A stretch of DNA of 64,000 nt from Meghimatium bilineatum (lineage: Eukaryota > Mollusca > Gastropoda > Stylommatophora > Philomycidae): the NCBI GenBank assembly GCA_034231615.1, contig CM067298.1:2299834-2363833 (forward strand), given 5' to 3'. Below, piece by piece: positions 4,812 through 46,300 of this stretch. Both the position numbers and the translations under genes were made by a program. Under the pieces are notes generated by a model that worked only from the letters and a program-made list of their open reading frames with translations, had not been told where the DNA came from and made no database searches. The number at the start of each line of letters is the position of its first letter. Positions within the stretch are counted from its first letter, which is position 1.

Positions 4812-5352
4812 GTTCTTCAGTCATTTATCAGGTTACAGCACCAATAGCTTCAGTCAGATATCAGGTTACAGCACCAATAGCTTCAGTCAGATATCAGGTT
4901 ACAGCGCCAATAGCTTCAGTCAGATATCAGGTTACAGCGCCAATAGCTTCAGTCAGATATCAGGTTACAGCACCAATAGCTTCAGTCAGATATCAGGTTA
5001 CAGCGCCAATAGCTTCAGTCAGATATCAGGTTACAGCACCAATAGCTTCAGTCAGATATCAGGTTACAGCACCAATAGCTTCAGTCAGATATCAGGTTAC
5101 AGCACCAATAGCTTCAGTCAGATATCAGGTTACAGAGCCAATAGCTTCAGTCAGATATCAGGTTACAGCGCAAATAGCTTCAGTCAGATATCAGGTTACA
5201 GCACCAATAGCTTCATTCAGATATCAGGTTACAGCACCAATAGCTTCAGTCAGATATCAGGTTACAGCACCAATAGCTTCAGTCAGATATCAGGTTACAT
5301 CGCCAATAGCTTCAGTCAGATATCAGGTTACAGCGCCAATAACTTCAATGAA
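4812..5352. repeat. 33-bp array grown from a LINE B 3' end
   Basis: About 16 copies of TCAGATATCAGGTTACAGCA plus CCAATAGCTTCAG. On the minus strand each unit reads TEAIGAVT-stop-YL, and the array abuts FIEVIGAVT-stop, the C-terminus of the RNase H LINE at 5353-5925. The unit is therefore a reiteration of that LINE's stop-codon region. After the array (4811 downward) the LINE tail resumes (actgaagaacaatgcagaag). Two long plus-strand frames across it are artefacts of the 33-bp period. Confidence 0.88.
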
Positions 5353-5925
5353 TTGTGTGATTCGCTTCAGGTCATCCACGGAACCCCTCAAGTCTGGAAG
5401 TAGTACCGTCTCTGTAGGCCATATTTTCTCTCTCTCTCTCTCTTATTGGTAGAGTTGATAGGCATGAAGAATGTGTTCTGCAGTCTCTGGGCTCAGTCCA
5501 CAGTTGCACAGGTCTGTCTCGCCAATCTTCAGCTTTCGGAACATGTGACTTCTCAATCTGTTGTGCCCAGTTCGTAGTCTGAAAATGATGGTTTGTTCCT
5601 TGCGTGACATGTGATGGTAGCTGTCATTTGGTTCTGCAGTTGGGTACATTTTTTGCTTCCACTTTTTCTTATATTCTGCTTTTAACATGGTCTTACATCC
5701 ATAGTATGTATTATCACTTTCTATTTGTTCTAGTGATCCTTTCCTTGCCAGGAGATCAGCTTTCTCATTTTCAAGTATGCCACAGTGACCAGGGATCCAC
5801 TGCAGTTCTGTTTCTTTGGTAGTACTGCTGAGGTGTAGTAAGCAGGTCATAAGTTCATTCATGCTCATGTTCTTAGTTCTTTCAATGCCTGCAACACTGA
5901 CTTTGCACCCAGGGTGAGAATGAAT
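5353..5925 (-). mobile_element. LINE B fragment: RNase H domain and C-terminus
   Basis: Minus-strand frame 5868-5443 encodes the end of an RNase H domain (LQWIPGHCGILENEKADLLA, with the catalytic His and Asp region) and the C-terminal Cys-containing region [20 protein letters not shown] plus DLCNCG. A preceding piece (GAKSVLQAL, near 5890) corresponds to the second catalytic block. Downstream, PTETVLLPDL and IEVIGAVT complete the ORF. 5'-truncated near 5925. RNase H places it with I/Jockey-type LINEs (family knowledge). Confidence 0.85.
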
Positions 5926-43300: not shown

Positions 43301-46300
43301 TGTCATCTGTTAGTGACTTTAGTTTTTTTTGGTTGTTGATTAGTTGCAATGTTTAGACTATGATGTAATCTCTTCTCTTTGTCAATTTTCGGGCATGTAA
43401 GGCTGTGCAGATGATAGTATTGAGTGTCTGATGTCGTTTGCGAGTTAAGTATTGAGTGTCCAATGTTGTTTGTGAGTTAAGTTTTGATTGTCCGATATTG
43501 ATTGGAAGTTAAGTATTGAGTGTCTAATGTTGTTTGCAAGTTAAGTATTGAGTGTCTGATGTTGTTTGCGAGTTAAGTATTGAGTGTCCGATGTTGATTG
43601 CGAGTTAAGTATTGAGTTTCTCATGTTGTTTGTGAGTTCATCTGGTGTCATGTCCTCTTGAATGGCCATCAATATACTAAATTTGTTCTGCAACTCCATG
43701 CTGTATTCTGTTGGTATTGCTCTAGTTTCGTATCTAATGGGTCTGGCGCTTTTCGCTGACCTCTTGAGTCTGATCTTCACATCTGCTACTAATATCTCAC
43801 GGTCGAAATCGCAATCTGCTTTTGGATAATTCTTACAGAACAGTAGACTGGATCTCCATCTGTGGTGTATAGTGATGAAGTATATTTGGTTTCTTGTCTT
43901 GTAATCTGGTGATGTCCAGGTGTATGGGTGTCTAGGGTGTTGTTTGAACAGGGTGTTGGCTATTACTAAATCATTTTCTATGCAGATGTTAACAGTCTTT
44001 CTCCTCTTTCATTCTACTGTCCTAATCCAAATGGGCCTTTGATTCTGCATTCTTCGTGTCTTATTTCCCTACAAACTTTCACATTCAGGTCACCTATTAT
44101 TAGTTTGATGTCTTGCTTGTGTGTTTTGTCTATTGTTTCCTGAAGTTTGTCATAGAAAACTTCTAGCTTCTGCTCTTCAGTTGCAGATATTGGAGCATAC
44201 ACTTGAATTATTGTGGTGTTTCATATTTCTTCGCTTCAGTCTTATACTTATGATTCTGTCATTTATTGTGTTGTATCCTAGCATAGATCTTACTTTCTCT
44301 TTGTTCAAAATCAAGCCTACTCTGCATTGTCTCCTCTTCTCTCTTTCTGAAAAAATTAGTTGTTCCCGTCGGTGTTGCGAATGTCCTTGTCCTTCCCATC
44401 TGTGCTCTGATATTCCCATAATATCTACTATCTACTCCAGTTCTTTCCATCTGTCCCTGTACTATTTGAAGTTTACCTTGATACACGTTTCTCACATTCC
44501 ATGTGCCTATTCATAGTCTGTTTCTCTTCTTTAGAGCGTTGTCAGTGTTTTCTTTGATAACGCAGTCGATCTTTTGGTATTCATCACATTTACCAGTACT
44601 AGCACTGCTTTTGTTCTTTTCCCCGGTTATTTTGGGTTTGTCCAGCCTGTTCAGCCAGACCCTTGAAGCTTATTTGTGGTGATGAGTTTCTTAGCATGTG
44701 TATGTCTCAGTAGTTTGCCATTGCTTTCTGAGCCGGTTATAGTCGCTTATCATTTACCCTCCTTGATGCGCTCTCATGCCCAATACAGGGCTTTTCCAAC
44801 TCCTGCCTTTGAAGCTGTTGTCGCTAATATGATTGTCCGCCGTCTCCACCAGCAATTATGTGTACTGTAGGGGAGGACATTCCTCCCCTTGCTGAGCAGC
44901 TTCACATAGTTCAGCCAACTAGGCATGGTCGGGAGGGGGGGGTGTGACGCTGCTGTGCACAAGCAGACTTGTAGAGTCATACGTGATCTAGACAGGAGTG
45001 GGGGAACCAAATAGGATCCTGTACTTCCCAAGGGAAGTGGCTGCCACTCACCGTGAGGTACTATCCCTACCTGTCTTACCCCCTTAATCATCTAATTATT
45101 TTAAACAAATACCAGACTTTGGCTTTTCAGTGATCTCCGCACACACCAGGTCTAGAAGAAGTCCAATACTGATGTCATCGTTGCGTACAATTGATGTCAT
45201 CGTTGCGTACAATTGATGTCATCGTTGCATACAATTGAAGGCTATCATTATTATTGTTTTTATTAATAAAAATGGACCAGTATAATTGTTGGTGGTAATT
45301 GTTTACCAACCTAGGTAAACTACAGATTAGTAGACGGTAGTCTGGAGAATAGAATGTGTTGCACTGTTCGCAACTTTACTGCAGTATCTGCACCTTTTGA
45401 CTTGCCATATCCGATTTCAACATGGTAATTGTTGGTGTAAGTCTGCTTATTTTAATATTTAGGCCTCTAAAGAAAACTATAAAAATCATAAAATTTGAAG
45501 TTATGATTGTAGACTATAGGTCTGTGAGACATGCTCAGACTTAGGAGACAAGTTGTATCACTACATTTATCAGACTTTTTCTCTATGCTCTCCTCCATCC
45601 ATTCACTGCATGTGTCATATGAAAAGGAGATATCGTTTTGAATTTCTGTTGAAGCGTGAATGACTACATATATACAGGAGAACCCCACTAGATAAAAATA
45701 TTTTCTTCTTCTTCACCATTCTTCAGTCAGTTACAGCATCAATAAAATGTTCTGTTCATAAGGATGTTCATGTTATGTAATGTTCATAAGGACATAAAAA
45801 TTAACATGTCTTGTCATGGATGACACGGTTATAAAGACAGATTGGAAAAGTCTTAATCTAATATATATTATTATAATAAAGCTCATAATCTGTCAGTATC
45901 ATAGATGTGTCATGGTGAATACATTAGCACACACAGATATCTGATACTTCAATAATAATATCTCATTGGGCAAACAATTTTATACTGTTTAGCTATTATA
46001 ATGTCTCTTGAAGTGGAGATGAGGCTTTGTCTGGCCAACAGAGACACATAACCAGCTACTTGCCCCATCAAGACTAGCTTCTTGAAGTGGAGATGAGGCT
46101 TAGTCTGGCCAACAGAGACACATAACCAGCTACTTGCCCCATCAAGACTAGCTTCTTGAAGTGGAGATGAGGCTTAGTCTGGCCAAAAGAGACACATAAC
46201 CAGCTACTTGCCCCATCAAGACTAGCTTCTTGAAGTGGACATGTAGCTTAGTCTAGTCAACAAAGGCTGGAAACTAAGATTGGTGAAGCCATCCTGGCAT

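Follow-up and report, generated by a model that had tools for sequence, protein, structure and literature searches.

The 3' end of one LINE family recurs as a 33-bp minisatellite in the gastropod Meghimatium bilineatum

In a 64,000-nucleotide stretch of Meghimatium bilineatum DNA (GenBank assembly GCA_034231615.1, contig CM067298.1, positions 2,299,834 to 2,363,833 of the forward strand; hereafter the window), many minisatellites and microsatellites lie at or inside sequence of long interspersed nuclear elements (LINEs), which raises the question whether retrotransposon ends are turned into satellites by a shared process. A sequence-only reading of the window had proposed slippage of the LINE reverse transcriptase at the 3' end, or later unequal exchange seeded there. 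The analysis reported here shows that the ends of one LINE family act as minisatellite seeds and that most other LINE-adjacent arrays examined are tails, single-copy accidents or older arrays. The family in question is an RNase H LINE termed family B, represented in the window by a 5'-truncated copy at 4790-5985 on the minus strand (family A, family B, family E and "RTE-like" are working names). Minisatellite birth is poorly explained, and family B, with about 2,000 recognisable 3' ends and a fixed unit, constitutes a natural series. Its independent-looking expansions of different ages would allow the frequency of seeds at insertion and the speed of growth to be measured. According to the literature, any part of a transposable element (TE) can yield tandem repeats and LINE 3' ends have done so (PMC9659126). 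In humans, 23% of minisatellites are TE-derived, and established mechanisms explain 6% of these (PMC3389668). Short flanking repeats can initiate minisatellites (PMC6947457).

The family B 3' end as a 33-bp minisatellite

The window copy of family B has its 3' end near 4790 and carries an RNase_H Pfam match (E 2.4e-6) on 5443-5985. Tandem Repeats Finder (TRF) called an array of 16 units of 33 bp at 4815-5347 (minus strand), whose unit corresponds to the last 33 bp ahead of the tail segment, i.e. the end of the open reading frame (ORF) including the stop codon. The unit equals the single-copy 3' end of other family B LINEs, and 14 other copies align across this end. Family B bodies range from about 460 to more than 2,000 bp and have the 3' end in common, as in variable 5' truncation. 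Target-site duplications of 11-13 bp were found in five of the 15 copies with both ends in the sequence retrieved (L062, L064, L065, L068 and L074), and L065, which has two units, sits inside its duplication. Four TGAAG motifs are present at the family B 3' end, and the 33-bp unit spans motif 2 to motif 3. The segment is thus bordered by TGAAG on both sides, within the 5-10 bp of flanking repeat named by Haber and Louis.

The frequency of expansion was addressed with two samples. The LINE sequence flanking the window array was used in a DNA search, in which 40 of 3,420 candidates were scored; the 3' ends of 34 copies other than that of the window, representing 33 loci, were then inspected (all 14 loci L062-L075, together with 20 of 25 further rows; L072 and L073 counted once). 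One unit was found in 27 of the 33 loci and a deleted form in one (L071), and the remaining five hold 2, 2, 5, 5 and 8 units. The second sample consisted of 21 loci from the start of the C1 list of exact 3' ends, with a few places skipped (two loci from the search itself and 19 retrieved in addition); 16 of them are single, and five are multiple with 2, 3, 6, 9 and at least 14 units. Pooling of both samples gives 10 of 54 loci with 2 to at least 14 units in the same 33-bp register, 43 single loci and one deleted form. Genome-wide, the junction between two 33-bp units has 3,634 exact matches and the exact 3'-end pattern has 2,024, a single array contributing at least 11 of the latter; the reversed controls gave 0 matches in both cases. 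Seven loci taken from the top of the C1 junction list hold 39, 9, 3, 5-6, 35, at least 59 and about 12 units, all following LINE body. The seven were selected because they carry arrays; a single segmental duplication accounts for two of them, and the 9-unit locus also belongs to the exact-end sample. A retrotransposed 12-unit array common to L102 and L103 was considered and rejected, as the flanks past the LINE also match (1,242 bp, 99%), identifying the pair as the segmental duplication.

The expansion is confined to the 3' end. TRF detected no array in the bodies of 58 family B copies, which amount to 31,027 bp. Because one 2-kb body contains 200 direct repeats (5 bp or longer, spaced 15-80 bp apart) that do not expand, 5-bp flanking repeats are insufficient. 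At C1:25803700-25806700 (L126, C1:25.80 Mb), units of about 65 bp comprise the last bases of the LINE including the tail and upstream LINE body is absent, as expected were a multi-unit complementary DNA (cDNA) truncated. For family B, the proposed seeding of arrays at LINE ends was borne out: the 3' end recurrently becomes a 33-bp minisatellite in the same register, which is present in young insertions, lies inside the LINE and is absent from the body.

A different pattern of spacings was noted at C14:24004151-24005400 (genome G000), where junction spacings such as 43, 76, 86 and 109 bp fit mixed 43- and 33-bp LINE-end units.

Array frequency at RTE-like LINE ends

The generality of the process was addressed with one unrelated family. 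The genome of the window (1.61 Gb, 32 contigs) was searched with RVT_1, and 150 of 82,272 candidates were scored. The 50 top-ranking copies inspected (30 loci and 20 stretches) comprise 49 with one clear common RTE-like 3' end and one, L022, without it. An array starts within 60 bp of this end in 10 of the 49 copies. The apparent excess was at first striking and was lost upon consideration of array coverage and 5' flanks: an array reaches into the first 50 bp of 9 among the 49 copies versus 7.8 expected from farther bins (difference +0.024, 95% confidence interval -0.086 to +0.146). Counting array starts near LINE ends can hence produce a false excess, which should be taken as a warning. Among the ten junction arrays, the same array also lies on the 5' side of the LINE, clearly in L002, L008, L020, L036 and L047 and weakly in L016 (diverged) and L041 (array edge); L001 shows no trace, and L040 and L023 (an AT run) fall outside the score. 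Presence of the same array on the 5' side indicates that the LINE jumped into an older array.

Among the RTE-like copies no unit made of their own LINE end was seen, and no array begins deeper than 2 bp within the LINE (60 bp examined). In the 20 copies L031-L050, array coverage decreases from 0.19 at the junction to 0.04 at distances above 930 bp, and the other 29 show no fall (0.13 to 0.20); there may be a small local array effect at RTE-like ends. In this sample, RTE-like LINE ends do not seed arrays. A shared process acting at LINE ends in general, as put forward in the sequence-only reading, was thus not recovered in the one unrelated family tested, which has no junction excess and in which five clear and two weak cases among ten arrays are older targets.

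Age, growth and origin of the 33-bp arrays

The ages of expanded and single copies of family B were compared over the last 150 bp of the body in 53 copies (L111, for which the stretch held the array alone, was left out). The median number of substitutions is 1 for both expanded and single copies. Zero body substitutions were found in L065 (2 units), L089 (8 units) and L109 (3 units); L094 has 4, and L106 and L112 have 7 each. No body variant among 57 tested is diagnostic of expansion (best P 0.053). Nor do expanded copies group together on a tree built from 34 rows that retain 300 bp of body or more (8 changes versus 9.6 when shuffled, with 72 to 80 of 500 shuffles as low), albeit the star-like shape of this tree gives low power for clustering. 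No unit variant common to the five young expanded copies compared was seen, and a unit type of L094 is found again in two older copies, L102 and L104.

Growth of the arrays after insertion is apparent from their internal structure. Blocks of several units are repeated as higher-order patterns in L098, L102 and L103, and the repetition of multi-unit blocks implies growth in place. The longest arrays (35, 39 and at least 59 units) are found in copies that are at least 2.6% diverged, these copies being mostly picked for having arrays; growth of the arrays with age is suggested by this distribution rather than measured. As a separate observation, the eight units of L089 roughly alternate between consensus and variant, forming 66-bp dimers.

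The best explanation at present, which we hold tentatively and at somewhat short of an even chance, is a duplication at or near insertion, probably through slippage of the reverse transcriptase, followed by growth in place. About one in five of the sampled insertions carry the 33-bp segment two or more times, and the extra unit most likely dates from insertion or from very shortly thereafter. While the nascent cDNA is still short, at the outset of target-primed reverse transcription, it may slip from one TGAAG back onto the neighbouring one and recopy the segment; the arrays would then enlarge in place through slippage and the exchange of unit blocks, the traces of which are the higher-order patterns. 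As a cause of the 33-bp arrays, slippage by the LINE reverse transcriptase appears good but unproven. Slippage of L1 ORF2p early in reverse transcription has been described, with tail expansion and duplication of 3' sequence (PMC3415434), and slippage at the 3' tail was likewise argued for the TGTAA repeats of UnaL2 (PMC3747384). The repeats of family B are found only at the 3' end and are present in the youngest copies, the pattern looked for in slippage retrotransposition. A SINE (short interspersed nuclear element) of Aedes is reportedly another case of slippage retrotransposition. A stronger version, in which about one-fifth of insertions have a fixed 33-nt stretch next to the tail duplicated by the LINE's own reverse transcriptase as target-primed reverse transcription begins, so that the family continually sows minisatellite seeds of which some grow to dozens of units, is doubtful though worth entertaining.

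Several observations weigh against duplication by slippage at insertion. The evidence on slippage consists of DNA copies only, and the family B 3' end has no stable RNA hairpin (z +0.75 and +1.04). Junctions into TGAAG motif 1 amount to only 34, 12 of them in the one array at C1:25.80 Mb and 22 at single sites that are mostly explicable as point variants, and the 17 junctions from motif 4 to motif 2 occur at two places, 16 of them in one C14 array. As the other TGAAG pairs are nearly unused, 5-bp homology is not enough, and this near absence hints at inheritance of an existing duplication. Target-site duplications were found in one of seven multi-unit copies (L065 only) versus four of eight single-unit copies, several of the seven being older. 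Unit number does not rise simply with age, since L100, which is the most diverged among the array copies, has 3 units and L102 (2.6%) has 35. Both units of L069 carry one change that is absent from the other sampled copies, which suits duplication after insertion or an altered source. Finally, the array of L089 shows 7 changes in 264 bp versus 0 in 151 bp of its body.

Two other origins compete with duplication at insertion, and each is assigned a minor share of the probability. Source LINEs may themselves have held multiple units, in which case insertions would inherit two or more 33-bp units whose number then varies by slippage on long repeats. This unlikely but serious candidate would account for the nearly exclusive 33-bp register (3,634 junctions as compared to the few others, at two places and in one array) and for the array of L089 being more diverged than its body, and a tandem unit with the stop codon and 3' end would be harmless to the ORF. 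It sits less well with the expanded copies being unclustered on the (low-power) tree and lacking a common marker site, or with the lack of a unit variant common to the five young copies, save for the L094 type in L102 and L104. The other possibility, likewise an unlikely but serious candidate, dispenses with the reverse transcriptase and invokes replication slippage or unequal exchange between two TGAAG motifs after insertion, i.e. minisatellite birth of the Haber and Louis kind, for which 5-bp flanking repeats are as in the model (cited in PMC6947457). The arrays clearly do grow in place, and the longest stand in copies at least 2.6% diverged, though mostly picked for their arrays; what such a process leaves unexplained are the 31 kb of body with many equal direct repeats and no array, and the copies that already have 2, 3 and 8 units at 0 substitutions in 150 bp.

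Insertion of LINEs into older arrays, or mere adjacency at the base rate of a genome with 15-25% tandem repeats, is very improbable as the source of the family B arrays. Such insertion is seen elsewhere, given the RTE-like arrays that continue on the 5' side of the element and a 20-bp array of the window that stands on both sides of the LINE at 62245-62937, and it fails for units that consist of LINE sequence (4815, 12806 and most of 9980) and for a fixed 33-bp register; moreover, L001 has no array trace on its 5' side.

Family B can be compared with several known systems. Human TE-derived minisatellites (Ahmed and Liang 2012, PMC3389668) likewise consist of tandem TE sequence with local expansion and a suspected initiation at retrotransposition; they are scattered across many TEs, hotspots being few, and those left unexplained mostly have two units, whereas family B concerns one LINE 3' end, one register and about one-fifth of the sampled copies. 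The slippage cases of UnaL2 (PMC3747384) and L1 ORF2p (PMC3415434) are similar in that repeats occur only at the 3' end, the starting point of reverse transcription, but concern tails and short stretches, as opposed to a 33-bp unit that includes a coding end and stop codon. The cetacean common satellite, from L1, and the 3' region of HeT-A (PMC9659126) also have 3'-terminal LINE sequence as satellite unit. Those are satellite families, while the arrays of family B are dispersed and nearly all seen still attached to a LINE. Minisatellite birth after Haber and Louis (cited in PMC6947457 and PMC3389668) has 5-bp direct repeats bounding the unit in common with family B, albeit equal repeats elsewhere in the family B LINE stay unexpanded. 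Among the open-licence papers listed in literature searches, none was noticed that describes a 30-odd-bp unit recurring at the end of one LINE family, which is weak evidence of novelty.

Other arrays and features of the window

At a TRF score cut-off of 50, 101 rows merged into 58 arrays that cover 16,145 of the 64,000 bases (25% of the window). The nine true arrays named in the sequence-only reading were all called by TRF where they had been placed. Four further items, TTGA at 9680 and 40315 and TAGA at 13050 and 30615, do exist as tails of about 3-4 units, but are not TRF arrays at this score. In relation to LINEs, the 13 listed sites divide into three whose unit is wholly or mostly LINE 3'-end sequence (4815, 9980 and 12806), two arrays within LINE coding sequence (21307 and 43416), five simple tails (38305, 9680, 40315, 13050 and 30615), two arrays adjoining a LINE piece (AAT and GATA) and one with no LINE shown (GT, 10660-10705). 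The tail at 30615 is presumably that of a LINE, judged from a C-terminal motif in a related copy, and some window ORFs are likewise taken to be LINE C-termini by our own assignment. Pfam pieces of reverse transcriptase or RNase H lie at 5443-5985, 15031-15600, 18583-19035, 19586-20011 and 40406-41152, and the LINE annotation of the window was extended from Pfam-type seeds by protein similarity.

With the LINE list and its 16 3' ends compiled by hand, and arrays collapsed to points, 13 of the 58 arrays of the window lie inside LINE sequence versus 17.6 expected, i.e. without excess. Conversely, an array stands within 50 bp of 7 of the 16 LINE 3' ends versus 1.84 expected by point placement (P=0.001). 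The point-placement null disregards LINEs that insert into arrays, which at 25% coverage would add about 4 to the expectation. The enrichment anticipated at LINE 3' ends was thus recovered in the window as such, but is weak, because insertion into arrays would supply about 4 more.

Among the individual arrays, the 45-bp array at 12806-13033 (plus strand, 5 units) is located in a family A LINE 3' end with TAGA tail (12624-13055, plus strand), and its unit equals the coding 3' end of this LINE. The family A 3' end at 9393-9695 (plus strand) has a simple TTGA tail and the 45-bp segment in single copy. Family A was compared through five other copies met incidentally: the segment is single in all four complete ones (window 9393-9695 and three genome copies), and the fifth, a genome copy, is truncated inside it. 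From these sequences, the 12806 array looks private to its own copy. The 45-bp array at 9980-10160 (minus strand, 4 units) belongs to a 3' terminus at 9962-10180 (minus strand) that resembles an RNase H LINE (relative at 19222-20130), with no LINE body recognised upstream. Here, 30 of the 45 bp match the related RNase H LINE terminus with two differences and continue into a GAAGAAGAA tail; this terminus and tail are also present at window 19216+, L021 and L027, and the remaining 15 bp have no match in the relatives seen.

The 47-bp array at 21307-21784 (plus strand, 10 units) is located in the RNase H region of a LINE on the plus strand (about 20900-22222), and a diverged array at 22227-22513 (plus strand) begins 5 bp past the AACC tail of the same LINE. 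The 32-bp array at 43416-43638 (minus strand, 7 units) is placed within LINE-like coding sequence (43051-44431), and a 45-bp array of 3.4 units at 15858-16012 (minus strand) marks the 5' edge of LINE reverse transcriptase sequence (15031-15857). The CT/GA array at 38311-38338 (minus strand) is the GA tail of the LINE at 38311-39908. The AAT-rich array at 16205-17236 adjoins the 3' terminus, near 17245, of a LINE piece on the minus strand (17245-17545). The AGAT array called at 25200-25954, the GATA item of the earlier reading, is part of a GACC/AGAT array at 25020-25954 beside a minus-strand LINE piece at 25955-26049; its assignment as a LINE tail was rejected, as the strand is wrong and the adjoining piece lacks its last ~70 bp. 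The 20-bp array (62192-62254 and 62987-63439, spanning 62192-63439) flanks the LINE piece at 62245-62937 on both sides, indicating that the LINE was inserted into the array. The arrays of the window other than the 33-bp array, i.e. simple tails, putative duplications in single LINE pieces and older arrays hit by a LINE, need no such process as that considered for family B.

Further features were noted along the window. Inside a LINE, a 28-bp GTAGG-type array (38572-39228) is interrupted by a 280-bp dispersed element, corresponding to an insertion into the array; relatives of the element are found at 13459, 56384 and 61278, and the GTAGG-type array family recurs at 26069-28266. At 7940-8001, an AT microsatellite has grown within the reverse transcriptase-coding part of a LINE, at codons spelling IYIY. 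Two inverted repeats of 681 bp with 97% identity (50074-50750 and 51527-52207) enclose a 275-amino-acid ORF that has no Pfam match above cut-off; its end resembles, by motif, a GIY-YIG domain, perhaps of a Penelope-like element. A 598-amino-acid open frame at 22494-24290 (minus strand), for which no LINE similarity and no Pfam match above cut-off were found, is possibly a host exon.

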